Of a DNA stretch of 64,000 bases, positions 35 to 39,126 are shown piece after piece. The notes below the pieces were generated by a model. The model saw only the letters and a list, made by a program, of their open reading frames with translations. It was not told the origin of the DNA and made no database searches. The position numbers and the translations under genes were made by a program. The DNA is from Clostridiaceae bacterium (GTDB lineage Bacteria; Bacillota; Clostridia; Lachnospirales; Lachnospiraceae). Every line of letters starts with the position of its first letter. The first letter of the stretch is position 1. Location: contig CABJBA010000004.1 in assembly GCA_902363735.1 (NCBI GenBank), positions 420,255 through 484,254 of the forward strand, given 5' to 3'.

Positions 35-1300
35 TTATTCCACCTCCGTACAGATAAGAATTCTTTTAAGGTCCGGATATTCTGAAAAGCTGTCTTTTTT
101 CAGAATCACCTGTTCCATCTCTCCAGGCGCCAGCACTCGTTTTTTCTTGTGGGATACCCTTACATCATCATAATAGACGTTGATGTAACGGTCCTTATAT
201 ACGTCTGCAACCCGGAAACGCACCGTCACCTGATCTGCCATATTAGACACATCAATGTTCTGAGGGACTGTGTAACGGACTCCGTTTTCAGCCTTTAACT
301 CTACACTGTGTGAAGCACTCTTATCTGTATCGTCTTTCACGTAAGCAGCCGCATTGGTACCTGCCATGGCAGACTCCTCGGACACATAATCTACCAGGTC
401 GTGAACATGGAGCACATTGCCGCAGGCAAATATGCCTTCTGCACTGGTTTCCAGCTTATCACCTACCATTGGCCCTGAGGTAACGGGATTCATATCTACT
501 CCTGCGCTTCTGGAGAGCTCATTTTCCGGAATCAGGCCTACTGAGAGAAGAAGTGTATCACAGCTATAGTATTCTTCAGTGCCTTTTATGGGCCTGCGTT
601 TTTCATCAACCTGGGCCAGAGTAACTCCCGTCAGGCGTTCCTTTCCCTCAATATCCACTACCGTATGGCTCAGTTTTAAGGGAATTCCGTAATCGTCCAG
701 GCACTGGACTATGTTCCTTTTTAACCCCCCGGAATAGGGCATCAGCTCTGCAACCACCTTTACATTGGCCCCCTCTAAGGTCATTCTCCTTGCCATAATG
801 AGTCCAATATCGCCGGAACCTAAAATCACAACTTCTTTTCCTACTGCAAAGCCATCCATGTTCATCAGTCTCTGGGCTGTTCCTGCAGAATATATTCCTG
901 CCGGACGGTATCCCGGTATGTTTAATGCTCCCCTGGGCCGTTCCCTGCATCCCATGGCTAATACCACTGCTTTGGCCTTTATCGTGGTCAGACCCTCTTC
1001 CCGGCTTATGACTGTCACTTCTTTATTCTCATTTATATCCAGAACCATGGTGTTTAAGCGGTAGGGAATCTGTTCCGCTTCCACCATGTCAATATAACGG
1101 GAGGCGTACTCCGGTCCGGTCAGTTCTTCTTTAAAGGTATGAAGTCCAAATCCATTGTGAATGCACTGGTTTAAAATTCCACCCAGCATATCATCACGTT
1201 CCAGGATCATTATATCCGTAATTCCCGCTTTTTTTGCAGCCACTGCGGCAGCGAGGCCGGCCGGACCTCCTCCGATTATTACAATGTCATGCTCTGTCAT
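35..1300 (-). CDS. NAD(P)/FAD-dependent oxidoreductase, second gene of glycerol-3-phosphate oxidation operon
   Basis: A 421-residue pyridine-nucleotide-disulphide-type flavoprotein. The N terminus carries the FAD dinucleotide fold (IIGGGPAGLAAA, residues 8-19), a second nucleotide fold follows (VILGSGDIGL, about 157-166), and a late FAD motif contains ACGN (about residue 291). It lacks the CxxC redox pair of thioredoxin reductases. It starts 13 bases after the GlpA-like gene and abuts the DUF1667 start, so the three form one operon. This trio is the clostridial equivalent of GlpABC, passing electrons from glycerol-3-phosphate to an acceptor; which subunit meets the acceptor cannot be read here. 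Confidence 0.85.
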   Translation of the reverse strand: MTEHDIVIIGGGPAGLAAAVAAKKAGITDIMILERDDMLGGILNQCIHNGFGLHTFKEELTGPEYASRYIDMVEAEQIPYRLNTMVLDINENKEVTVISREEGLTTIKAKAVVLAMGCRERPRGALNIPGYRPAGIYSAGTAQRLMNMDGFAVGKEVVILGSGDIGLIMARRMTLEGANVKVVAELMPYSGGLKRNIVQCLDDYGIPLKLSHTVVDIEGKERLTGVTLAQVDEKRRPIKGTEEYYSCDTLLLSVGLIPENELSRSAGVDMNPVTSGPMVGDKLETSAEGIFACGNVLHVHDLVDYVSEESAMAGTNAAAYVKDDTDKSASHSVELKAENGVRYTVPQNIDVSNMADQVTVRFRVADVYKDRYINVYYDDVRVSHKKKRVLAPGEMEQVILKKDSFSEYPDLKRILICTEVE

Positions 1301-1313
1301 GGTGCGCTCCTCC

Positions 1314-2750
1314 CTATTTACGTCCGGTTAAAACATTGGAACCGGGCCTGTTCTTGCAGATGTCTTCCATATTCCTTCCTGTTTCCCTTGCCAGAATCTC
1401 CATGGTCTTAGGTCCGCAAAAGCCCGCCTGACATCTTCCCATGCCTGCACGGACCCGGCGCTTGATTCCGTCTAAGGAAACAGCACCTAAGGTACGGTTG
1501 ATGGAATCCACGATTTCACCTTCGCTGACTTCCTCGCAGCGGCAGATGATGGTACCGTACCGGGGATTCTTTTTAATAAGTTCTGCCCGTTCCTCCCGTG
1601 ACAGCTTACGGGGATCAGTGATTCCATTCCGGGTTCCCTTAAAGTCTTCCTTCTTTGAAGCATGGGCCTTCCGGGCAATGAGCTGGGCAAGAAATACACC
1701 AATGGCAGGAGCACTTGTAAGTCCTGGGGACTCAATTCCTGCGGCATCAAAAAAGCCTTCCGCATCCTCTGCTTCCTTCACAATGAAGTCATTTCCTTTT
1801 TCATGGGCCCGGAGACCGGAAAAGGACGTGATTATCTGGCGGAAGGGAATGTCTTTCACTCCCCATGCAGCCTTTTCCATGACATCGGATAAATCTGCGG
1901 CATCCGTCCTGGTGTTCTCCTTATCCTTTACATCTGCTGCTGTCGGACCGGTGAGCAGGTTGCCGTGAACGGTAGGCGTCACCAGAACTCCCTTTCCCAT
2001 TTTGCCCGGAAGCTGAAAAATAGTGTGGGTGACATGGTTACCTGCTTCCTTATCAAGAAGCAGGTAATCTCCTTTTCTTGGTGTAATATGAATCTTCTTT
2101 TCGCTTACCATGTTATGAAATACATCGGCATAGACTCCTGCTGCGTTGACCACATAGGAAGCGTGTATGATACTATCGTTTGTCTTTAAGTCATAGCCAT
2201 CTGAGGTTTTTACTACTTCTATTACTTCAGTCTGCAACAAGAATTCCACTCCGTTGTCACAGGCGTTTTCTGCCAGGGCAATGGTAAGTCCAAAGGGACA
2301 TACAATTCCGCCGGTGGGGGCATAGAGGGCAGCCACCACCTGACCGGACACATTTGGCTCCATGGCACGGACTTCGTCTCCCGAAAGAACAGACAGATCT
2401 TCAACTCCATTTTTTTTCCCTTTTTCAAGTAGTTCTTCTAAGCCCTGCACCTCGTCCTCTGAAAAGCAGAGAACCAGAGAACCATTTTGAATGAACGAAA
2501 AATCCAGCTCCTGGGCCAGTTTTCCCATCATACGGTTTCCTTCCACATTGAATCTGGCCTTCCATGAGCCCAGTGTGGCATCGTAGCCTGCGTGGACAAT
2601 GGCACTGTTGGCCTTTGATGTGCCGGAACATACATCTTCCTCCCGCTCAATGACACTGATCTTAAGATCATATCGTGACAGCTCCCTTGCGACTGCACAT
2701 CCGATGACGCCCCCTCCAATAATTGCCACATCGTAATATAATTCCTTCAT
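1314..2750 (-). CDS. glpA: GlpA-like FAD-dependent glycerol-3-phosphate dehydrogenase with C-terminal BFD-type Fe-S domain
   Basis: A 478-residue protein if started at the ATG at 2750, which has GGAGGAGAA 6 bases upstream; longer in-frame starts lack such a site. Residues 5-360 form a DAO-type FAD domain beginning YDVAIIGGGVIG. The C terminus has a Cys-rich BFD-like [2Fe-2S] region (ICRCEEV, then GMGRCQAGFCGP). This matches clostridial anaerobic glycerol-3-phosphate dehydrogenases; L-2-hydroxyglutarate oxidases share the fold. The GlpP-type leader upstream and the glp genes downstream favour glycerol-3-phosphate as substrate. First gene of the operon. Confidence 0.82.
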   Translation of the reverse strand: MKELYYDVAIIGGGVIGCAVARELSRYDLKISVIEREEDVCSGTSKANSAIVHAGYDATLGSWKARFNVEGNRMMGKLAQELDFSFIQNGSLVLCFSEDEVQGLEELLEKGKKNGVEDLSVLSGDEVRAMEPNVSGQVVAALYAPTGGIVCPFGLTIALAENACDNGVEFLLQTEVIEVVKTSDGYDLKTNDSIIHASYVVNAAGVYADVFHNMVSEKKIHITPRKGDYLLLDKEAGNHVTHTIFQLPGKMGKGVLVTPTVHGNLLTGPTAADVKDKENTRTDAADLSDVMEKAAWGVKDIPFRQIITSFSGLRAHEKGNDFIVKEAEDAEGFFDAAGIESPGLTSAPAIGVFLAQLIARKAHASKKEDFKGTRNGITDPRKLSREERAELIKKNPRYGTIICRCEEVSEGEIVDSINRTLGAVSLDGIKRRVRAGMGRCQAGFCGPKTMEILARETGRNMEDICKNRPGSNVLTGRK

Positions 2751-2805
2751 GTTCTTCTCCTCCATATATAGATTCTCCCGGTATAATCTCCGGCTTAATA
2801 TGCAC

Positions 2806-2863
2806 AAAATAAAAAAGAGTAAAGTAAATATGCGAATCTCTCCGCAATATTACCCTTACTCTT
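2806..2863 (-). promoter_or_regulatory. glpA leader: Leader terminator hairpin, candidate GlpP antitermination target
   Basis: On the minus strand, AAGAGTAA (ending at 2863) pairs with TTACTCTT (ending at 2815). Inner pairing GTAATA/TATTTAC and a TGCG/CGCA tip extend the hairpin, and it is followed by TTTTTT. It lies between the promoter at 2896-2925 and the first gene start at 2750, so by default it would end transcription in the leader. A glpP gene lies 6.5 kb away and a comparable hairpin precedes it. Control by GlpP with glycerol-3-phosphate is inference from family knowledge. Confidence 0.72.
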
Positions 2864-3952: not shown

Positions 3953-3988
3953 GATTTCACAGGGTATTATCCCATTTACAATAAAGCA

Positions 3989-4009
3989 ACGCCCCCAAAG
4001 CGAGGGCGT
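3989..4009 (-). terminator. Terminator after P-type ATPase gene
   Basis: ACGCCC(TC) and GGGGGCGT arms form a GC-rich stem with a short loop. On the minus strand it is followed by TGCTTTATT, a weak U-rich tail. It starts about 50 bases after the ATPase stop codon. Confidence 0.55.
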
Positions 4010-4060
4010 CTGTATTTTCTTCTTAGAAAACTTTTTCTATGAGCTGATTTTTTTCTATTA

Positions 4061-6667
4061 TTAATGAAGACTCTCCCGTATGGTCTTAAACGCCTGAATT
4101 CCAAGGGTAGGAAGTACTGCAAATATGAAGATGGTAAGAAACTGTCTGGCAGTTAAATCTGCCACATAAAAAAATGCATGAAGTGTGGGCACGAACAGAA
4201 CTGCTGCCAATAATACCGCCCCTGCCTCAAAGGCCATAATGGTCCACAGATTGCTCATGAAGCCAATTTTTAATATTGAATGACTGCTTCGGCAGTTAAA
4301 ACCGTGAAAGAGCCTTGCCAGTGTCAGGGTGGAAAAGGCCATGGTACTGGCTGCCTGCTCGCTTCCCGTGACCAAACCCGTGTGGTAAGCCGCCATGGTG
4401 CAGAAGGCAATAAAGGTCCCCTGCAAAATAATCTGAAAGACAAATCTTTTTGTCAGTATTCCTTCCTTTGGATCTCTGGGAGGATGGGCCAGAAGATCTG
4501 CCTCCGCCTTTTCCATTCCAATAGCAATGGCGGGAAGAGAGTCCGTCAATAGATTGATAAACAGCAGATGAACCGGAACAAAAGGCGTGGGAAGGGCTAA
4601 AAAAGAAGTATATACAACACAGAGGATTCCAGCCATGTTTCCTGATAAAAGGAATTTAATGGCATTTCGGATGTTCCGGTAAACGTTACGGCCGTTGGCA
4701 ACAGCCTTTATAATGGTAGCGAAATTGTCATCCATAAGAATCATGGCGGAAGCATCCTTTGATACCTCAGTTCCCATCTTACCCATAGCAACACCAATAT
4801 CAGCCTGTTTTAAGGCCGGGGCATCGTTGACTCCGTCTCCTGTCATAGCCACAATACGTCCTTTTTTTTGCCAGGCCCGCACAATGCGGATTTTATGTTC
4901 CGGAGAAACTCTGGCATATACACTGATGCTCTCCAGTCTTAAATCCAACTCATCTTCCGTCATATCGTCAAGTTCCGGGCCGCTGACTGCGATCCCGTTT
5001 CCGTCTAAAATCCCAATTTTTTCCGCAATGGCAGAAGCGGTTACTTTATGGTCTCCTGTTATCATGACAGGCCGTATTCCTGCTCTGCGGGCACTTAAGA
5101 CCGCATTTCTTGTTTCCGGCCGCGGAGGGTCCATCATGGCTGCCATGCCTAAAAAAGTGAATCCAGCCTCTGATTTTTCCGTCAGTTGCTCCTCTTCTCC
5201 CATCTCCCGGCAGACAAAGGCCAGGACACGAAGACCTTGTCTGGAAAAATCCAGATTCTGCTCCGTCATGGCCCTGCAGTCCCCGTCTGTTATGGGTCTG
5301 ATCCCATCCCAGGTCCATATCTCAGTAATACGGGGAAGGAGTATATCCACCGCTCCCTTAGTAAAGAGAATCCGCTTTCCTTCAATCCGATGGAGAGTGC
5401 TCATCAGCTTTCTTCCTGAGTCAAAGGGAAGCTCACCAATTCTGGGATACCAGGACTTAACGGCCTCTTCCACCAGCCCAGTTCTTTCCGCCATCTGGAT
5501 TAAGGCTGCTTCCGTAGGATCTCCCAGCAGTTTTCCTTCTCCATAGACAGAATCATTGTTTAGCACTGCATCATACAGCAGATATTTATGTACGGAAATT
5601 TCGGTATTTAAAAGCTCCGGCACGTAAAGCCGGTTATTGGCATAAACCTGCTGGACAGTCATCCGGTTCTGGGTCAGAGTTCCTGTTTTATCGGAACAGA
5701 TGACAGAAACACATCCAAGGCTTTCCACTGCCTTTAAATCTTTTATAATTGCATTTTCCCGGACCATTTTCTGAGTGCCCATGGCCTGCACAATGGTAAC
5801 AATAGAGCTAAGCGCTTCCGGTATAGCGGCCACTGCAAGCGCTACGGCAAACATCAGGGAATCCAGAATAGCCATCCTGCGGTAAAGACTTAACCCAAAG
5901 ACTCCGGCACATATAACGAGAATTGCCGCCGCCAGCCTGCCGCCAAACTGATCCAGACTCACTTCGAGAGGAGTCTTTTTTTCTCCTGTATCATTCATGA
6001 GAGCAGCAATCCGGCCTATCTCCGTATTCATTCCAGTTCCTGATACCACCGCCATGGCTCTGCCTGAAGAAACAAGGGAACCGGAAAACACCATGTTGGT
6101 CTGTTCCGCTAAAGGAACCTTTTCCCCTCTTAACCGCCCTGTCTTTTTTTCAACCGGAACTGATTCCCCGGTTAAAGAGCTTTCATTGACCAGGAGAGAG
6201 TGATTTTCTAAAAGCCTGCCGTCAGCCGCCACCATATCTCCGGCCTCCAGCAGTAAAATATCTCCCGGTACGATTTCAGCAGATAAGACTTCCTGCTTTT
6301 TTCCCTCACGGATTACCTTTGCAACAGGGGCTGACAAAGCCATCAGGCTATCCAGGGACTTTTCAGCCTTCATATGTTGTACGGTGCCTAAAATTGCATT
6401 TAACAGAAGCACTGCAAATATAACTCCCGTACTTTCCACGTCACCGGAGATCATGGAAATGACCGCCGCTATAATCAAAATAATGACCAGTAAATCCTTA
6501 AACTGATTTAAAAATACTTCAAAAGCGCTTTTTCGTTCTGCCTTTTTCAGGATATTAGGTCCATAGTTTTTTCTGCGCCTTAAGATTTCTTCAGAGTTCA
6601 GACCACTCCGGCCAGCCTCCAGCCGTTTTAGGACCTCCTCCTCTGAGAAACGAAACCATTCTTCCAT
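4061..6667 (-). CDS. Cation-translocating P-type ATPase, Ca2+-type (type II)
   Basis: An 868-residue P2-type ATPase, near the usual family length. It has the N-terminal cation-ATPase domain (residues 1-70), the actuator loop TGES (166-169), the M4 ion-binding motif PEAL (283-286), the phosphorylated Asp326 in DKTGT, a hinge at TGDGVNDAPAL, and about six C-terminal membrane segments. The M4 motif and NPA-less C terminus fit bacterial Ca2+ (PMCA/SERCA-like) pumps, but Mn2+ or Na+/K+ cannot be excluded. It faces the MgtC-like gene downstream, a possible divalent-cation pairing. The ATG at 6667 is preceded by AGGAAGGAG. Confidence 0.88.
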   Translation of the reverse strand: MEEWFRFSEEEVLKRLEAGRSGLNSEEILRRRKNYGPNILKKAERKSAFEVFLNQFKDLLVIILIIAAVISMISGDVESTGVIFAVLLLNAILGTVQHMKAEKSLDSLMALSAPVAKVIREGKKQEVLSAEIVPGDILLLEAGDMVAADGRLLENHSLLVNESSLTGESVPVEKKTGRLRGEKVPLAEQTNMVFSGSLVSSGRAMAVVSGTGMNTEIGRIAALMNDTGEKKTPLEVSLDQFGGRLAAAILVICAGVFGLSLYRRMAILDSLMFAVALAVAAIPEALSSIVTIVQAMGTQKMVRENAIIKDLKAVESLGCVSVICSDKTGTLTQNRMTVQQVYANNRLYVPELLNTEISVHKYLLYDAVLNNDSVYGEGKLLGDPTEAALIQMAERTGLVEEAVKSWYPRIGELPFDSGRKLMSTLHRIEGKRILFTKGAVDILLPRITEIWTWDGIRPITDGDCRAMTEQNLDFSRQGLRVLAFVCREMGEEEQLTEKSEAGFTFLGMAAMMDPPRPETRNAVLSARRAGIRPVMITGDHKVTASAIAEKIGILDGNGIAVSGPELDDMTEDELDLRLESISVYARVSPEHKIRIVRAWQKKGRIVAMTGDGVNDAPALKQADIGVAMGKMGTEVSKDASAMILMDDNFATIIKAVANGRNVYRNIRNAIKFLLSGNMAGILCVVYTSFLALPTPFVPVHLLFINLLTDSLPAIAIGMEKAEADLLAHPPRDPKEGILTKRFVFQIILQGTFIAFCTMAAYHTGLVTGSEQAASTMAFSTLTLARLFHGFNCRSSHSILKIGFMSNLWTIMAFEAGAVLLAAVLFVPTLHAFFYVADLTARQFLTIFIFAVLPTLGIQAFKTIRESLH

Positions 6668-6857
6668 ACTGACGCTCCTTCCTGTTTCTCCTACTATGGT
6701 ATGAAGAGGGAAGGGGATTTCATGAATGATTTTACCAGACAGCCAATCGCAGGATAAATCTTTTTGCCTATTGCAGTAAGAAGAATTTTTTATTATAATT
6801 TCCCTATAATGTTAAAACTTCAAGCTGATACGATACAGCAGAAAGGAAATGATTCCT

Positions 6858-7340
6858 ATGGACAAAATTACAAGCTTTACCATAAACCATTTAGAACTGC
6901 TTCCGGGCATCTACGTTTCCCGCAAAGACCTGGCAGGAGATGCCGTAATTACCACCTTTGACTTAAGGATGACACGGCCTAACTTTGAACCGGTCATCAA
7001 TACCGGAGAGCTTCACACGATGGAGCACCTAGGGGCCACCTTCCTTAGAAACCATAAAACCTTTGGTTCTAAAATCCTCTATTTCGGTCCTATGGGCTGC
7101 CGTACCGGCTTTTATCTTCTCTTATCCGGGGATTACAGCTCCAGGGACATCATTTCCCTGGTTTCGGAACTTTATGAATTTATCCGTGATTTTGAAGGAG
7201 AAGTTCCAGGTGCTGCGGCAAGAGACTGCGGCAATTATCTGGACATGAACTTACCAATGGCTAAATATATGGCTGGAAAATTCTTAGATGAGGTTCTGTA
7301 CGGAATTGATGACAAACATCTCATTTATCCGGAAAATTAA
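6858..7340 (+). CDS. luxS: S-ribosylhomocysteine lyase LuxS
   Basis: A 160-residue LuxS cleaving S-ribosylhomocysteine to homocysteine and the AI-2 precursor DPD in the activated methyl cycle. The metal ligands His53 and His57 lie in HTMEHL with Glu56 between them; catalytic Cys81 is in GCRTGFY and the third metal ligand Cys124 is in DCGNYLDMNL. The ATG at 6858 is preferred over the one at 6849, which sits only one or two bases from the AAGGAA ribosome site. No pfs neighbour is present. A TATAAT lies at about 6805 but its -35 is poor. Confidence 0.95.
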   Translation: MDKITSFTINHLELLPGIYVSRKDLAGDAVITTFDLRMTRPNFEPVINTGELHTMEHLGATFLRNHKTFGSKILYFGPMGCRTGFYLLLSGDYSSRDIISLVSELYEFIRDFEGEVPGAAARDCGNYLDMNLPMAKYMAGKFLDEVLYGIDDKHLIYPEN

Positions 7341-7388: not shown

Positions 7389-8360
7389 ATGTATAAAGTA
7401 TTAATACCTAAAACTATTTCCAATACCGGGGCAGAATATCTTCTTGAAAAAGGCTGTGAGGTCATTATAGGAGCGCCCTCTTCCCCTGACGATCCCCGTT
7501 TAAAGGATTGTGATGCCATTTTACCCGGGGGGAAATCCAAGATTAAGTATGATAAAGACGTTCTGGACCGGTGCAAAAACTGCAAGGTCATAGCTAATTT
7601 CAGCGCTGGATATGAACATGTTGACATTGTGTATGCAGAACAGGCTGGAATTCAGGTCACCAATGCAGGAACTGCCAACTCCAACGCAGTAGCGGAGCAC
7701 ACCTTATATCTTTTGCTGGCCTGTGCCAAAAATCATGAAATCATGACAAAGGCGGCCTATACAGGCAGCTTTTCCATCAGAGCAAAGGTGTTTAATTTAG
7801 AACTTCAGGGAATGACACTGGGAATCATCGGCTTTGGCAATATCGGACAACGGGTTGCTCAAAAGGCCATTCATGGATTGGGGATGAACGTTCTTGTCTA
7901 TTCACCCAATCTGACCAGAGAACAGCTTCCCCAAGGCATCCAGCTTGCATATGACCGGGATGAGATTTACCAGAAAGCGGATTTCATCTCCCTTCACGTA
8001 CCTCTGACAGAAGAGACAAGGCATATGGTTTCCAAAGAGCAGTTTGATTTAATGAAGCCTTCTGCTTATATCATCAACGTTTCACGGGGTGGAATTATAA
8101 AAGAAGAGGATTTAATTAAAGCAATAGAAGAAAAGAAAATCAGCGGAGCAGGGCTTGATGTGTTTGAACAGGAACCTCTTCCTGTTGACAGCCCCCTGTT
8201 TCAGCATGAAAACATTATTATTTCTCCCCACTGCGCCGCCAATACAGTTCAGGCACTGGAAAATATGGAACTGTATGCGGCAAAAGACATCTGGCGGGTT
8301 TTAAATGGGGAGGCGCCGGAGTTTCCCGTAAATCATCCATGCAGAAATATACCCAGGTAA
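7389..8360 (+). CDS. D-2-hydroxyacid dehydrogenase family protein
   Basis: A 323-residue NAD-dependent dehydrogenase of the phosphoglycerate/D-lactate family. It has a Rossmann GFGNIG near residue 146, the substrate Arg in NVSRGGII, a Glu in the LDVFEQEPL segment and the catalytic His in SPHCAAN. GGGAGGAAGAG precedes the start. It follows luxS by 48 bases and precedes a thioredoxin-fold gene by 20 bases, so the three may be co-transcribed. Substrate unknown; three homologues in the window show the clade is expanded here. Confidence 0.85.
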   Translation: MYKVLIPKTISNTGAEYLLEKGCEVIIGAPSSPDDPRLKDCDAILPGGKSKIKYDKDVLDRCKNCKVIANFSAGYEHVDIVYAEQAGIQVTNAGTANSNAVAEHTLYLLLACAKNHEIMTKAAYTGSFSIRAKVFNLELQGMTLGIIGFGNIGQRVAQKAIHGLGMNVLVYSPNLTREQLPQGIQLAYDRDEIYQKADFISLHVPLTEETRHMVSKEQFDLMKPSAYIINVSRGGIIKEEDLIKAIEEKKISGAGLDVFEQEPLPVDSPLFQHENIIISPHCAANTVQALENMELYAAKDIWRVLNGEAPEFPVNHPCRNIPR

Positions 8361-8380
8361 ACCAGACAGGAGGTCTTCCA

Positions 8381-9043
8381 ATGATTGATTTGTCAGAAAT
8401 ACCAAAAACAAATAACCTGATTGATGAAGCATTAAAAGAGCAGCTGATCGGTATTTTTTCCAAAATGCCGGAATCGGTAGTGTTAAAGGCTGTAGTCGAC
8501 ATGAAACAGGAAAAGAGTTACGAAATGGCCTCATTTTTACATATTATTTCAGAGCTGAGTGAGCACTTAAGGGTGGAACTTTATACTCCGGAAGAGGCAG
8601 GCGCTCAGGTTCCTGATCTGGATATAACTTATCTCCCGGTAACCGGCTTTTACAAAAACGGAGAATACCGGCGGATAGCCTTTCACGGGGTTCCCGGAGG
8701 AAAGGAAATAAACTCCTTTATTCTTGCTGTCATAAATCTGTCGGGAGGCTGCCAGGACGTACCGGAAAAGTTAAAAAAACGCATTGGCAAATTGAATAAA
8801 GCAACGAATATCAAGATCTGTGTGTCCCTGTCATGCCATCACTGCCCCGGGGTGGTAACTGCGTGCCAGCAGATAGCCATTTTAAATCCTGGCATCGAAG
8901 CCGAGATGATTGACGCTGCGCTTTATCCTGAACTGGTGGAAAAATTTAACATCTCAAGAGTTCCCATGATAATTACTGATGACCACGACATTTATATGGG
9001 CAGTAAAACCATTGAGGAAATTGTGAATCTGTTAAAAATTTAA
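8381..9043 (+). CDS. Thioredoxin-fold protein resembling the AhpF N-terminal domain
   Basis: 220 residues, started at the ATG at 8381 behind AGGAGG. The C-terminal half has a redox CHHCP (about residue 154) within a thioredoxin fold ending in VPMIITDD (cis-Pro). The first half looks like a second, Cys-less thioredoxin fold, with HGVPGGKEINSFI matching the first fold of the AhpF N-terminal domain. AhpF uses this two-fold module to pass electrons to AhpC. Here it stands alone, without the flavoprotein part, ahpC or trxB beside it. Its partner is unknown. Confidence 0.72.
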   Translation: MIDLSEIPKTNNLIDEALKEQLIGIFSKMPESVVLKAVVDMKQEKSYEMASFLHIISELSEHLRVELYTPEEAGAQVPDLDITYLPVTGFYKNGEYRRIAFHGVPGGKEINSFILAVINLSGGCQDVPEKLKKRIGKLNKATNIKICVSLSCHHCPGVVTACQQIAILNPGIEAEMIDAALYPELVEKFNISRVPMIITDDHDIYMGSKTIEEIVNLLKI

Positions 9044-9148
9044 CCAGTCGTTTTTTTAAATTTTGTCTCTATTTTGTTAAAATCGAACAAACCCAAGCGG
9101 CAGTTACACCAATAATATGTACAAATCACAACAAATAAATTGAGCCTA

Positions 9149-9177
9149 TTGAAAATTTGTGTGCAATGTGCTATATT
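9149..9177 (+). promoter_or_regulatory. Promoter of glpP-led glycerol operon
   Basis: TTGAAA (9149-9154), 17-base spacer, TATATT (9172-9177) with TGC before the -10. Transcription would start near 9184, about 28 bases before the leader hairpin. The TGTGCTA around the -10 resembles the -10 area of the divergent-strand glpA promoter. Confidence 0.72.
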
Positions 9178-9211
9178 GATTAAAGGTAAATACATCGTGC
9201 AGAGACGACAG

Positions 9212-9264
9212 AGAGCATGGGATAACAACAGAAATGTTGATTATATTCCATGCTCTTTTTTTCT
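9212..9264 (+). promoter_or_regulatory. glpP leader: Leader terminator hairpin upstream of glpP, candidate GlpP target
   Basis: AGAGCATGG (9212-9220) pairs perfectly with CCATGCTCT (9248-9256), extended inside by ATAACAAC against GTTGATTAT, and followed by a run of T. It ends about 38 bases before the glpP start. The position and shape are those of the conditional terminators that GlpP opens when glycerol-3-phosphate is present. It would also make glpP autoregulated. The regulatory logic is inferred from the Bacillus model. Confidence 0.78.
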
Positions 9265-9301
9265 TAAAGAGGATGTATTATATTTCGGAGAGGGAGATTC
9301 C

Positions 9302-9871
9302 ATGGATCAGAAATTCTACGACCTTATTGAGGCCAGCCCGGTTATCGCAGCCGTCAAGGATATGAAGGGCTTAAAAGCCTGCTGCAAGACAGAGGAAGTA
9401 AAAGTAGTTTTTGTCCTGTTCGGGGATATCTGCAATATAGGGTCTATTGTAAAAGAGATCAAGCAGTCAGGAAAGACTACCATGGTACATATTGATCTGA
9501 TTACAGGGCTTGGCAACAAGGAGATCGCCGTAGATTTTATTAAACAGAACACCGAAGCCTATGGTATCATCTCCACCAAGCCGGGAATGATCAAGAGGGC
9601 CAAGGAGCTGTCGCTGTACACGATGCTGAGGATTTTTATCCTGGATTCCATGGCATTTGAAAATATTGAAAAACAGGTAAATCTGGTACGCCCGGATATG
9701 ATCGAGATTCTGCCGGGACTGATGCCTAAGATAATCCGCCGGGTCAGCCAGCTGGTGAAAGTTCCGGTGATTGCCGGCGGCCTGATTTCAGACAAGGAAG
9801 ATGTGATGGCCGCACTGTTGGCAGGAGCTATTTCCGTATCGTCTACAAATCAGGATGTGTGGAAGCTCTAA
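9302..9871 (+). CDS. glpP: Glycerol-3-phosphate-responsive antiterminator GlpP
   Basis: A 189-residue TIM-barrel-type GlpP, full length for the family. The core contains HIDLITGLGNKE and the phosphate-binding end VIAGGLISDKEDV with ALLAGAISVSST. GlpP binds glycerol-3-phosphate and the nascent leader RNA, preventing termination. The start at 9302 follows GGAGAGGGAG; earlier in-frame codons run through the leader hairpin and are not used. It heads the glpK-glpF-dhaKLM run, 93 bases before glpK. Confidence 0.93.
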   Translation: MDQKFYDLIEASPVIAAVKDMKGLKACCKTEEVKVVFVLFGDICNIGSIVKEIKQSGKTTMVHIDLITGLGNKEIAVDFIKQNTEAYGIISTKPGMIKRAKELSLYTMLRIFILDSMAFENIEKQVNLVRPDMIEILPGLMPKIIRRVSQLVKVPVIAGGLISDKEDVMAALLAGAISVSSTNQDVWKL

Positions 9872-9928: not shown

Positions 9929-11461
<1,533 letters not shown>

Positions 11462-11517: not shown

Positions 11518-12231
11518 ATGTTAGTTTATATTGCTGAATTTATTGGAACTTGTTTGCTGATATTGTTAGGTGACGGAGTTGTTGCCAATGTAACTTTGAA
11601 TAAATCGGGTATGAAAGGGGCAGGCTCTATTCAGATCACCTTTGCATGGGGGCTTGCTGTTATGCTTCCCGCGTTTATCTTCGGAGCTTCCTCAGGAGCA
11701 CATTTTAACCCGGCTATTACCATCGCTCTGGCGATGGATGGAAGCCTTGCCTGGAGCCTGGTTCCCGGTTATGTCATCGCACAGTTTGCAGGTGCATTTT
11801 TAGGTGCCTGCCTGGTTTACATCTTGTTTAAGGATCAGTTTGACGCTACGGAATCCGCAGGCACAAAGCTGGGCGTATTTTCAACCGGACCTTCTATTCC
11901 CAACATGGGCCGCAATATTTTAAGTGAAGCAATCGGAACATTTGTCCTGATGTTTGCCATTAAAGGCATTGCTCAGGCAGGCGCGGTTCCTCCCGGAGTG
12001 GGCAACTTTCTGGTCTTTGGAATTATCGTATCCATCGGTATGTCTTTAGGCGGTCTGACCGGTTATGCCATCAATCCGGCCCGTGACTTAGGACCCCGTC
12101 TGGCTCATGCGGTTCTGCCCATCAAGGATAAGGGTGATTCCAACTGGGGTTACGCACCAGTTGTTATTATCGGTCCCATTATCGGAGCAATTGCAGCAGT
12201 GCTTCTATATGGTGCAATTCCATGGCAGTAA
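11518..12231 (+). CDS. glpF: Glycerol uptake facilitator (aquaglyceroporin)
   Basis: 237 residues with six membrane helices and the two pore motifs: HFNPA (62-66) and INPARDLGPR (about residue 186). The Asp following the second NPAR is typical of glycerol-conducting rather than water-only channels. It starts 56 bases after glpK behind AAAGAGGGG and feeds GlpK. A small Cys-repeat gene follows. Confidence 0.94.
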   Translation: MLVYIAEFIGTCLLILLGDGVVANVTLNKSGMKGAGSIQITFAWGLAVMLPAFIFGASSGAHFNPAITIALAMDGSLAWSLVPGYVIAQFAGAFLGACLVYILFKDQFDATESAGTKLGVFSTGPSIPNMGRNILSEAIGTFVLMFAIKGIAQAGAVPPGVGNFLVFGIIVSIGMSLGGLTGYAINPARDLGPRLAHAVLPIKDKGDSNWGYAPVVIIGPIIGAIAAVLLYGAIPWQ

Positions 12232-12293
12232 CATGCAGCCGGTAAAACAAATATAATTTATAAAATCCGAAAAACAGGAAAGGAGGATAATGG

Positions 12294-12512
12294 GTGAAAA
12301 AAAAACAGCTGGATATTACCAATATGAACGGTGTGACAGAGGATGAAGACACAACCTGTGGGCTCAATGATATGAATTGCGTCGGCGAAGATGAGGTAAA
12401 CACCTGTGGATTAAATGACATGAATTGTCTCGGAGAAGATGATGATACCACCTGTGGACTCAATGATATGAACTGTCTGGATGAGGAAGAAAAAAAGGAA
12501 GAAAAAAAATAA
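12294..12512 (+). CDS. Small acidic protein with three CGLNDMNC repeats, function unknown
   Basis: 72 residues from a GTG start, with AGGAGG seven bases upstream. The earlier ATG at 12290 is out of frame and stops after 18 codons. The protein is three 16-residue repeats, each holding CGLNDMNC (Cys pairs 22/29, 38/45, 54/61) followed by an acidic stretch. A Cys-less degenerate copy (TNMNGVTEDED) precedes them, and an EEKKEEKK tail ends it. No signal peptide or membrane segment is visible. It lies between glpF and dhaK in the same direction. I do not recognise a family; metal binding or a modified-peptide precursor are possible, but no radical SAM gene is nearby. Confidence 0.75.
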   Translation: MKKKQLDITNMNGVTEDEDTTCGLNDMNCVGEDEVNTCGLNDMNCLGEDDDTTCGLNDMNCLDEEEKKEEKK

Positions 12513-12525
12513 AGAGATGCTGACA

Positions 12526-12557
12526 TTCAGAGACTTCTTATGATAGAAGTCTCTGAA
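12526..12557 (+). other. Perfect 13-bp hairpin between the repeat-protein gene and dhaK
   Basis: TTCAGAGACTTCT (12526-12538) and its exact complement (12545-12557) surround a 6-base loop. No T run follows, so it is not a normal terminator. It starts 13 bases after the small gene's stop and may stabilise the upstream mRNA end or set relative expression within the operon. Confidence 0.6.
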
Positions 12558-12593: not shown

Positions 12594-13580
12594 ATGAAAA
12601 AATTCATCAATGATGCGGCACTGGTTGAGGAACAGATGATTTTGGGAATGGTAAAGGCATATCCTCAGTATCTGAAGAAACTGGATTGCGGCAATGTGGT
12701 AGTACGTGCCCATAAAAAGAAAGACAAGGTTGCCTTAATCAGCGGCGGCGGAAGCGGACATGAACCGGCTCACGGCGGCTTTGTGGGCATGGGTATGCTG
12801 GATGCGGCAGTAGCCGGTGCAGTCTTTACCTCACCCACTCCTGATCAGATTTATGAGGGTATCAAGGCAGTCGCCACAGATGCCGGTGTACTGATGGTAG
12901 TTAAAAACTATACCGGTGATATCATGAACTTCGAAATGGCAGCTGAGATGGCGGAGATGGAAGGCATTGAGGTAAAGTACGTGGTAACCAACGACGATGT
13001 GGCTGTCAAGGACAGTCTGTATACGGTTGGACGCCGGGGCGTAGCCGGTACTGTTTTTGTACATAAAATTGCCGGTGCCATGGCTGAACAGGGCGCTTCA
13101 TTAAGCGAAGTACAGGAAGCAGCACAGAAGGTGATTGACCAGGTCCGTACCATGGGTGCGGCAATTGAACCGTGTACTGTGCCCGCAGCAGGAAAACCTG
13201 GATTTGAACTGGCGGAGAATGAGATGGAAATCGGCATCGGCATCCATGGCGAGCCGGGAACCCACCGGGAATCGCTGAAACCGGCGGATGAGATTGTGGA
13301 TCTCCTTTTAGAACAAATTCTTGCCGATATTGATTACACCGGCAGCGAAGTGGCAGTCATGATCAACGGAGCCGGAGCGACACCGCTTATGGAGCTGTTT
13401 ATCATCAATAACCACGTTGCAGATGTCCTGAAAGAGAAGAATATTCATGTGCATAAAACCTTTGTGGGTGAATATATGACTTCCATCGAGATGCAGGGCT
13501 TTTCTATTTCGCTGCTCCGTCTGGATGATCAGCTAAAGGAGCTTTTAGATGCTCCGGCCGATACACCGGCATGGAGATAA
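12594..13580 (+). CDS. dhaK: Dihydroxyacetone kinase, substrate-binding subunit DhaK
   Basis: 328 residues, family length. It binds dihydroxyacetone covalently as a hemiaminal on His218 in GIHGEPG, with the GGGSGHEPAHGG loop (51-62) closing over the substrate. AAGGGGG precedes the ATG. With DhaL and DhaM it forms the PTS-type kinase making dihydroxyacetone phosphate from PEP-derived phosphate. Its presence with glpK gives two phosphorylated entry routes from C3 polyols into glycolysis. No glycerol dehydrogenase is seen in the window. Confidence 0.95.
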   Translation: MKKFINDAALVEEQMILGMVKAYPQYLKKLDCGNVVVRAHKKKDKVALISGGGSGHEPAHGGFVGMGMLDAAVAGAVFTSPTPDQIYEGIKAVATDAGVLMVVKNYTGDIMNFEMAAEMAEMEGIEVKYVVTNDDVAVKDSLYTVGRRGVAGTVFVHKIAGAMAEQGASLSEVQEAAQKVIDQVRTMGAAIEPCTVPAAGKPGFELAENEMEIGIGIHGEPGTHRESLKPADEIVDLLLEQILADIDYTGSEVAVMINGAGATPLMELFIINNHVADVLKEKNIHVHKTFVGEYMTSIEMQGFSISLLRLDDQLKELLDAPADTPAWR

Positions 13581-13603: not shown

Positions 13604-14230
13604 ATGGCAGACAGCAGTAAAGTAATCGAAATTATCAAAGCAATCGGACATTGTATGGTGGAACACAAGGAGGAGCTGACGGCACTGGACCAGCCAATTG
13701 GCGACAGTGATCACGGTATTAACCTGGCCCGGGGCTTTGAAGCGGTTGAAAAGAAGCTTCCGGAGCTGGAGGGGAAAGATATCGGAACAATCTTAAAAAC
13801 AGTGGGAATGACCCTGGTTTCCACCGTGGGGGGAGCATCCGGCCCGCTTTACGGTTCAGCTTATATGAAGGCCGGTATGGCTTTGGAGGGAAAAAACGAA
13901 ATAGATCAGAAGGATTTTCTGGAGATGTTGAAAGCGGCCTCCAATGCCGTGATGCAGCGGGGCAAGGCGGTTGCCGGGGAGGCCACCATGCTGGATGCCA
14001 TGCTTCCGGCACTGAAAGCCATGGAGGAAGCTGACGCTGCCGGCGCTGCGCCTAAAGATATGCTGGATGCGGGTGTACAGGCTGCCTGGGCCGGTACGAA
14101 CCATACAAAAGATCTGATCGCCACCAAAGGACGGGCCAGCTATGTGGGCGAACGGGGGCTGGGGCATCAGGACCCCGGGGCAACGTCATTTTCCTATATG
14201 CTTGAAACGATTGCCCGGTGGAAAGGATAA
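13604..14230 (+). CDS. dhaL: Dihydroxyacetone kinase, ADP-binding subunit DhaL
   Basis: 208 residues. Mg-ADP is held as a cofactor by the aspartates in LDQPIGDSDHG (Asp29, Asp34, Asp36); Ser35 replaces the usual Gly between the last two. GGASGPLYGSA and GRASYVGERGLGHQDPGA follow as in other DhaL. GAGAGGTGATG provides the ribosome site. It transfers phosphate from DhaM to dihydroxyacetone in DhaK. The gene lies 23 bases after dhaK. Confidence 0.94.
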   Translation: MADSSKVIEIIKAIGHCMVEHKEELTALDQPIGDSDHGINLARGFEAVEKKLPELEGKDIGTILKTVGMTLVSTVGGASGPLYGSAYMKAGMALEGKNEIDQKDFLEMLKAASNAVMQRGKAVAGEATMLDAMLPALKAMEEADAAGAAPKDMLDAGVQAAWAGTNHTKDLIATKGRASYVGERGLGHQDPGATSFSYMLETIARWKG

Positions 14231-14235
14231 GAAAA

Positions 14236-14616
14236 ATGGTTGGAATTGTAATTGTTTCACACAGTGAGGATCTGGCAAGAAGCGTGGTGGGGCTGACTGC
14301 CATGATGGCGCCGAATGCGAAAATCACACCGGCCGGCGGTCTGGAGGACGGCAGTTTCGGCACAAGTTTTGAGAAGATTCAGACAGCCATCCAGTCGGTG
14401 TATTCCGATGAAGGAGTGCTGGTATTGATGGATATGGGCAGTGCGGTAATGACCACCGAGATGGTGATCGAGACCATGGAAGGCATGAAAGTGGCAATGG
14501 TGGATTGCCCGCTGGTTGAAGGAGCAGTCTTAGCAACCATTGATGCGGCCGCCGGAATGGATTTTGACAGTATCCGCCAGGCACTTTCTTCTGTTGGGAC
14601 ATCAAATAAGTTTTAA
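14236..14616 (+). CDS. dhaM: DhaM phosphotransferase subunit (EIIA-Man-like)
   Basis: 126 residues of a single EIIA-Man-like domain. His9 in IVIVSHS is the phosphorylated residue, which receives phosphate from HPr. GTSFEKIQ and VLMDMGSAVMTTE are family segments. It lacks the HPr and EI-like domains of the E. coli DhaM, as usual in Firmicutes. The ATG at 14236 follows GAAAGGA that overlaps the end of dhaL, suggesting coupled translation. Confidence 0.92.
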   Translation: MVGIVIVSHSEDLARSVVGLTAMMAPNAKITPAGGLEDGSFGTSFEKIQTAIQSVYSDEGVLVLMDMGSAVMTTEMVIETMEGMKVAMVDCPLVEGAVLATIDAAAGMDFDSIRQALSSVGTSNKF

Positions 14617-38875: not shown

Positions 38876-38954
38876 TCTCTGGGTAAATCTTTGCACAGCA
38901 AAAAGACTTCCCGGCATTCGGTCATCGCTCGTAACCGAATACATCGCAACATGA

Positions 38955-39110
38955 AAGGCAGGTCTTCTGACTTTGGCTTCCTCACAGCAGTTCCTCTTCC
39001 CGGTTTCCCAGTGATCTATAGAACCCTGCTCCACACTTACAGCGGCGGGACCGTAAGGGATTTTCACCCTTTTCCCTATTATCCTGCGGAGAATTTTCAC
39101 AGGCACCTTC
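38955..39110 (-). promoter_or_regulatory. Cobalamin riboswitch (AdoCbl aptamer)
   Basis: On the minus strand the order of conserved blocks is GGTGCCTGTGAAAA at the 5' side, AGGGAAAAGGGTGAAAATCC, GCCGCTGTAAG, then CTGGGAA, ending in the B12 box AGTCAGAAGACCTGCC (38973-38958). These are the standard cobalamin riboswitch elements. It controls cbiMN only, because cbiQO lies upstream of it. Confidence 0.95.
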
Positions 39111-39126
39111 CAAATAATACCATTGT

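Follow-up and report, generated by a model that had tools for sequence, protein, structure and literature searches.

Several described systems stand close to the locus considered here. In AhpF and its homologue TIGR03143, a double-thioredoxin part is fused to a flavin/NAD(P)H half, while the protein disulfide oxidoreductases (TIGR02187) are stand-alone chains. Short, repeated, Cys-containing proteins are known from metallothioneins, for which clustered CxC or CxxC motifs and metal binding are the criterion, and from the Cys-rich precursors of ribosomally made, modified peptides (RiPPs), where the TldD/PmbA family has members known from peptide maturation.

The locus described here lies in a stretch of 64,000 nucleotides from a Lachnospiraceae genome, hereafter the window. 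Its genes stand in the order AhpF-N-like enzyme, GlpP, GlpK, GlpF, a Cys-repeat microprotein, DhaK, DhaL and DhaM (Table 1).

Table 1. Features of the window and of two related arsenic operons
Feature	Location	Strand	Remarks
Pyr_redox_2 flavoprotein	35..1300	minus	adjoins the DAO protein
DAO + Fer2_BFD flavoprotein	1314..2807	minus	G3P-dehydrogenase-like
Stand-alone AhpF-N-like thiol-disulfide oxidoreductase	8339..9043	plus	PF13192 (Thioredoxin_3), active site CHHC, 234 aa
GlpP-type glycerol-3-phosphate responsive antiterminator	9140..9871	plus	PF04309
Glycerol kinase GlpK	9965..11461	plus	
Glycerol facilitator GlpF	11518..12231	plus	MIP family
Shine-Dalgarno AAGGAGG	12280..12286	plus	read from sequence; RBS score 6/6
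Cys-repeat microprotein CDS	12294..12512	plus	72 codons/72 aa, GTG start, TAA stop
N-terminal Cys-less unit LDITNMNG	12309..12332	plus	
Unit 1 CGLNDMNC	12357..12380	plus	
Unit 2 CGLNDMNC	12405..12428	plus	
Unit 3 CGLNDMNC	12453..12476	plus	
13-bp perfect inverted repeat	12526..12557; stem 12526-12538 / 12545-12557	plus	gap between microprotein gene and dhaK; by eye
DhaK	12594..13580	plus	
DhaL	13604..14230	plus	
DhaM	14236..14616	plus	ORF listed from 14218
Cys-poor NMN-repeat peptide	L085:3998-4234	minus	arsenic operon
Cys-poor NMN-repeat peptide	L084:1501-1698	plus	arsenic operon

A conserved Cys-repeat microprotein

The microprotein gene lies between the end of glpF at 12231 and the start of dhaK at 12594. 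Its product contains TCGLNDMNC three times with a period of exactly 16 residues, together with a Cys-less unit at the N-terminus and a Lys/Glu-rich tail after the repeats. The protein is acidic, shows by eye no hydrophobic stretch at its N-terminus, and holds its Cys in CX6C pairs only, with no CxC or CxxC. Compared pairwise, the three repeats differ strongly at synonymous sites (ps 0.51, 0.78 and 1.0) and little in changes to the amino acid (pn 0.10 to 0.16). A 115-aa ORF runs opposite (12179-12526, minus), yet an explanation as a chance frame or antisense artefact was rejected, as the plus frame has a start, a ribosome site, signs of selection and homologues. In the 79 genes checked, no repeats continue beyond the stop codon by read-through. 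The inverted repeat ahead of dhaK has by eye no T run downstream, and a similar one with a single G-U change is seen, also by eye, in the nearest relative (L194); it is possibly an mRNA processing or stability element.

A single-sequence search with the microprotein (threshold E 10) returned 111 homologues, of which 106 have an E-value below 1e-6, and a profile of the family gave 349 matches at E up to 1, of which the sequences of the best 120 were usable. In a scan of genome contigs, 89 stretches encode a relative, and the 80 that were kept form 79 loci, whose titles for the most part name Lachnospiraceae, Oscillospiraceae or genera of these families; with the window, these make the set of 80 loci used for counts. 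The start codon is ATG in 78 of the 80 genes examined, the exceptions being the GTG of the window and the gene of L037. A GGAGGA-like site (at least 5 of 6 bases) stands upstream of 73 of the 80, a count biased upward because the start-picking script preferred starts with such a site. The nearest relative found, in genome G293 (locus L194), has an ATG start and a gene order identical to that of the window, and its GlpK and DhaK share 96% and 95% identity, respectively, with those of the window. Pairs of microprotein genes limited to dS 0.1-1.2 have a median dN/dS of 0.20 when 28 disjoint pairs are taken and of 0.35 when all 274 are, 83% of the latter lying below 0.5; the genes are under purifying selection.

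These results bear out several claims of an earlier, sequence-only reading of this DNA, namely a 72-codon gene with a ribosome site, a 16-residue period with an additional Cys-less copy, a position between glpF and dhaK, and repeats kept by selection instead of chance. The two outcomes that it had named as fatal were looked for as well: homologues are plentiful in the single-sequence search, and across the 80 genes examined, with the dN/dS given above, conservation of the frame was not refuted.

The family has no Pfam or NCBIfam match at the curated cut-offs, and the window microprotein has none at E 1e-3. Among 50 members scanned at E up to 1, 26 match CFEM, a Cys-rich domain, weakly (best E 0.037; window microprotein 11.2 bits against a cut-off of 22), and 14 other families match one or two members each. 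Where sources name the members at all, it is only as "hypothetical protein". In the opening parts of the abstracts searched, no mention of the microprotein was found, and the exact motif strings occur in none of the papers searched. A viral origin was also considered, and no relative was confirmed among 16 candidate viral stretches. The microprotein is thus a real, conserved gene of an undescribed family.

The Cys come and go in pairs. In 178 distinct database sequences, both Cys are present in 403 units, neither in 243 and only one in 3, a tally that keeps frameshifted or truncated entries, counts related sequences instead of independent events, and misses units without [DN][MLV]N. Cys-less middle units (YGITDMNA, HGLNNMNG, SSITNMNS) occur in several distinct sequence groups. 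Because the Cys are present or lost together, each unit looks like an autonomous two-thiol site. In an alignment of 50 sequences, the N-x-N of the Cys-less first unit is invariant, and in the glycerol/AhpC type units 1 and 3 keep their Cys almost without exception. AlphaFold2, run with 50 sequences, gave the window microprotein a mean pLDDT of 55.6 and a pTM of 0.16, and thus predicts no fold for it; the protein is probably disordered and cytoplasmic. By sequence, no structural relative was found below E 0.36, with three PDB chains at E 0.36 to 0.64.

The stand-alone oxidoreductase

The window enzyme aligns with positions 342-554 of the 555 in TIGR03143 at E 4.8e-60. Homology begins at about residue 15, so its true start may be downstream of 8339. 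Stand-alone and fused forms were separated by the length of the open frame. Among 67 stand-alone copies examined, 63 of the 65 with a readable active site carry CxHC, and 48 other homologues that were fetched carry CTMC (37), CHNC (7), CHFC (2), CAFC (1) and CTNC (1). In PMC4395160, a His at the third active-site position is reported to have moved the potential of one thioredoxin from -287 to -221 mV, yet overall the authors find CxHC and potential to be little correlated. The direction of electron flow therefore cannot be read from CxHC.

Gene neighbourhood

The neighbourhood was surveyed by tblastn of fourteen reference proteins over the 79 loci and the window, and the counts are lower bounds because many loci end at contig ends. 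The stand-alone enzyme is found in 67 of the 80 loci, AhpC in 59 (in L076 only as a 192-base piece), GlpK and GlpF in 56 each, the DAO/BFD protein in 55, Pyr_redox_2 in 54, GlpP in 46, DUF1667 in 41 and DhaK in 37. In 79 of the 80, the enzyme, AhpC or some glycerol/dha gene is found. Glycerol or dha genes occur in 61 loci, and in most glycerol-type loci a DAO/Fer2_BFD homologue stands within the glp gene row. In 16 loci the microprotein is accompanied by the enzyme and AhpC with no glycerol or dha gene in the fetched stretch, 10 of these being full stretches of about 16 kb. The sequence-only reading had offered DhaK or GlpF as a partner; with dhaK and glpF in fewer loci than the enzyme, which rises to 73 of 80 when whole genomes are included, and with 16 loci that carry the enzyme and AhpC but no glycerol or dha gene in the fetched stretch, this is not supported as the main link, and such a partnership was set aside.

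The microprotein gene is divergent from ahpC in 36 loci. A PerR box was found upstream at the 5% level (60 shuffles) in 1 of these 36 divergent regions and in none of the 44 others, and control of the microprotein gene by PerR was rejected. A Pfam scan covered 82 of 228 candidate neighbouring ORFs, mostly the nearest, with near-duplicates removed by hand and some ORFs probably spurious; the commonest families, among the best 25 of 97, occur in at most 4 of the 82.

Several further features were observed around these genes. The window has luxS (6849-7340) close to its AhpF-N-like enzyme, and in three related loci (L072-L074) this gene is found about 3 kb from ahpC. In Lachnospiraceae bacterium A2, a 619-aa ORF that looks by inspection like a transposase (L086:3904-5763) sits between ahpC and the microprotein gene, flanked on each side by some 200 bases that resemble one another. 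Elsewhere in the window, a cobalamin riboswitch (RF00174, 115 bits) is found at 38940-39125 on the minus strand.

Co-occurrence across genomes

The enzyme count of 73 comprises the 67 loci with a copy nearby and six more (L004, L010, L032, L036, L065 and L072) for which it was found by whole-genome search. The genomes of L015, L019, L023 and L066 have only a fused homologue of about 550-580 aa (CTMC/CGMC), and those of L021, L076 and L078 have no enzyme match at E 1e-12. AhpC was found in 18 of 19 microprotein genomes searched whole, most of which show none in the stretch fetched with the microprotein gene.

G002, titled Lacrimispora celerecrescens, is the genome that carries L002, and its genus group comprises 25 genomes. 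The Cys-type microprotein occurs in five of them (G002, G281, G293, G295 and G296), and the stand-alone enzyme occurs in exactly these five and in none of the other 20 (one-sided p 1.9e-5 if the genomes were independent, an overstatement, as are all p-values and permutations given here, because the genomes are related). The fused AhpF homologue of about 550 aa shows the reverse pattern, in none of the five and 14 of the 20. As for the remaining six of the 20, G300 has a CTMC homologue in a 267-aa frame that was counted as fused-type, two have only a 513-aa form and three have none. All five microprotein genomes also have a 513-aa AhpF (CHNC), and the sole AhpC found in each lies beside that 513-aa form, not beside the stand-alone enzyme. 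This looks like replacement of a fused by a split AhpF system within the group.

Two wider groups were searched in the same terms. Among the 250 genomes of the G001 family group, the microprotein profile matches five, four of the Cys type and G243 of the arsenic type described below. The stand-alone enzyme is present in all four Cys-type genomes and in one other, G027, where it carries CAFC; G198 has a split fused homologue, and G001 carries both the stand-alone and the fused form. Among the 300 genomes of the G276 family group, G276 alone has the stand-alone enzyme, leaving aside an ambiguous 312-aa match in G555; the microprotein is found there and also in G492, which gives no enzyme match. 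G492 has two tandem microprotein genes (L212, on G492:C137), the second with degenerate units.

The sequences of the two proteins also diverge together. Over loci with all four genes (39 in one run, 38 in the other), distances between microproteins correlate with those between enzymes at r 0.83. Given GlpK, the partial r is 0.58, with none of 2000 permutations as high, and the corresponding value for AhpC is only 0.12. The microprotein is therefore coupled to the enzyme at the level of both genomes and distances, and its closest companion is the stand-alone AhpF-N-like enzyme, not glpF or dhaK.

Cys-poor relatives in arsenic operons

The microprotein profile has further matches in G002 and G243, where a peptide is encoded between acr3 and arsD. 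This arsenic-type peptide, MTEKLSINNMNGVS... in L084 with a similar one in L085, has no CX6C pairs in the copies seen. By hhalign, the Cys and arsenic types are related with 97.2% probability (E 3.6e-11). The neighbours in L084 and L085 match HTH_5 (ArsR), the SBF family and ArsD, and in L085 also ArsA; the SBF-family neighbour is read as Acr3. Used as the query, the arsenic type turned up in four members of the G002 genus group, in one of which (G284) the operon is decayed. Cys-poor NMN-repeat peptides also occur in the arsenic operons of L190, L191 and L189, the last of them decayed; L190 was read by eye, and in L191 a single ORF holds DUF2703 and ArsD. ArsD itself matches PF13192 weakly (E 7.4e-4, 7.9e-4 and 5.6e-7). 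These relationships suggest docking of the NMN repeat on proteins of the thioredoxin fold, with gain, or loss, of the Cys pairs in one branch. Another repeat peptide, of a third type (MLIYPIYPDYQNQNGLTY...DLNHMNG...SLNDMNG), is seen in L087 (about 3980-4130, minus) and in P0182-P0185, P0187 and P0193.

Possible functions

The best explanation, to which we would give an even chance of being correct, is that the microprotein is a redox partner of the stand-alone AhpF-N-like enzyme; it is probably not part of glycerol breakdown itself. It would present autonomous dithiol units of the CX6C type, two to three in number and in rare cases four, and would serve, presumably by direct contact, as the dedicated partner of a CxHC enzyme that lacks the NAD(P)H-flavin half. 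Because that half is absent, something else must exchange electrons with the enzyme, and the microprotein is the obvious candidate, as it carries thiols and its gene comes and goes with that of the enzyme. The Cys pairs of the units may cycle between dithiol and disulfide by exchange with the enzyme, making the microprotein a mobile redox carrier or buffer, and the enzyme would in turn exchange with AhpC in a peroxide-linked relay or buffer. Electrons might pass from the microprotein through the enzyme to AhpC and peroxide, or else the microprotein might take up oxidising equivalents generated by AhpC. In glycerol-type loci, the DAO/BFD, Pyr_redox_2 and DUF1667 proteins are candidate sources of electrons from glycerol-3-phosphate. 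The AhpC step is weaker in the relatives of the window, as no AhpC stands beside their enzyme. Exceptions to the partnership are the 7 of 80 microprotein genomes with no detected stand-alone enzyme, plus one of the two in the G276 family group. When the sequence-only reading had proposed a metal or redox sensor, it was the redox option that became the better supported, and the metal option fared worse, as set out below.

As the arsenic-operon relatives are Cys-poor, the repeat must have some role that needs no Cys pairs. Such a role is at the centre of a docking scaffold, in which a linear motif x-phi-x-N-M-N-G/C would bind a thioredoxin-fold partner and the Cys pairs would be a secondary lock or a redox switch on binding. 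The invariant N-x-N of the first unit and the predicted disorder fit this account, as do the profile relationship of the two peptide types, the position of the Cys-poor relatives after acr3 and before ArsD, and the shared Thioredoxin_3 match of ArsD and the window enzyme. The ArsD matches are weak, however, and the near-invariant Cys of units 1 and 3 suggest chemistry; we consider a scaffold unlikely, if worth keeping in view. Somewhat less likely again is a binder of metals or metalloids, in which each CX6C unit would hold Zn, Cu(I), Fe or As(III) as a bidentate thiolate ligand. An even number of Cys with paired loss, an acidic protein with no predicted fold, a relative in arsenic operons and a ZIP zinc transporter in 2 of the 82 neighbouring ORFs tested speak for it, but it is precisely the arsenic-operon copies that are Cys-poor, the window microprotein has neither CxC nor CxxC, and with no Pfam family in more than 4 of the 82 neighbours, no metal gene is constant there.

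Glycerol or dha genes accompany the microprotein at 61 of the 80 loci, which invites the idea of a sink whose thiols would trap electrophiles or aldehydes arising from glycerol and dihydroxyacetone, such as methylglyoxal or 3-hydroxypropionaldehyde. A sink would have no need of strictly paired Cys in a fixed motif, however, and the 16 loci where microprotein, oxidoreductase and AhpC occur with no glycerol or dha gene in the stretch make it very improbable. More doubtful than any of these is a multi-core RiPP precursor, as which the protein would be read from its Cys-containing cores repeated after a conserved N-terminal segment and from TldD/PmbA in 2 of the 82 ORFs. The N-terminal segment has the same repeat as the cores, and no maturation-enzyme family recurs among the best 25 of 97 families from the 82 of 228 ORFs scanned; the suggestion of a peptide-natural-product precursor made in the sequence-only reading accordingly finds no backing there.

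The redox-partner reading can be extended, tentatively and with poor prospects of holding in all its parts, into a broader proposal, that of a new class of redox protein: a multivalent CX6C dithiol carrier with no fold of its own would replace the fused reductase of AhpF and link a split AhpF to a different source of electrons, e.g., glycerol-3-phosphate oxidation, and the NMN repeat would be a general docking element for PF13192 proteins, reused with no Cys pairs beside ArsD. If the redox-partner reading holds, strict gut anaerobes have an undescribed thiol system with a split AhpF, some of whose work falls to a disordered microprotein. This would be a novel way of connecting protein disulfides with metabolism in cells exposed to oxygen for short times only. 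It also provides a first lead to function for a family of at least 349 database sequences.

Comparison with described systems

The microprotein resembles metallothioneins and Cys-rich RiPP precursors in being short, repeated and Cys-containing. It departs from the former in having CX6C pairs, no CxC and no Pfam match at cut-off, and from the latter in having no recurring maturase among the neighbours tested (82 of 228 ORFs). In the ArsD arsenic operons, a homologous NMN-repeat peptide stands between acr3 and arsD, and ArsD, like the window enzyme, matches PF13192, if weakly; their peptide is Cys-poor with no CX6C pairs in the copies seen, unlike the window microprotein. With the protein disulfide oxidoreductases (TIGR02187; PDB 1a8l and 1j08), the window enzyme shares homology, a stand-alone chain and a similar length, scoring 124.3 bits, below the curated cut-off of 185. 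With AhpF and TIGR03143 it shares the double-thioredoxin part, its solved relatives (5h29, 6il7, 1zyn and 1hyu) being led by 5h29 and 6il7, with AhpF and disulfide oxidoreductases next, and AhpC is near the stand-alone enzyme in many loci. It nevertheless scores far under the curated cut-offs of both models, TIGR03140 and TIGR03143 (203.7 against 687.65 bits for the latter), and is without the fused flavin/NAD(P)H half. Ultimately, the stand-alone enzyme differs from AhpF in carrying CxHC, not CTMC or CHNC, and in having a Cys-repeat microprotein as its companion.
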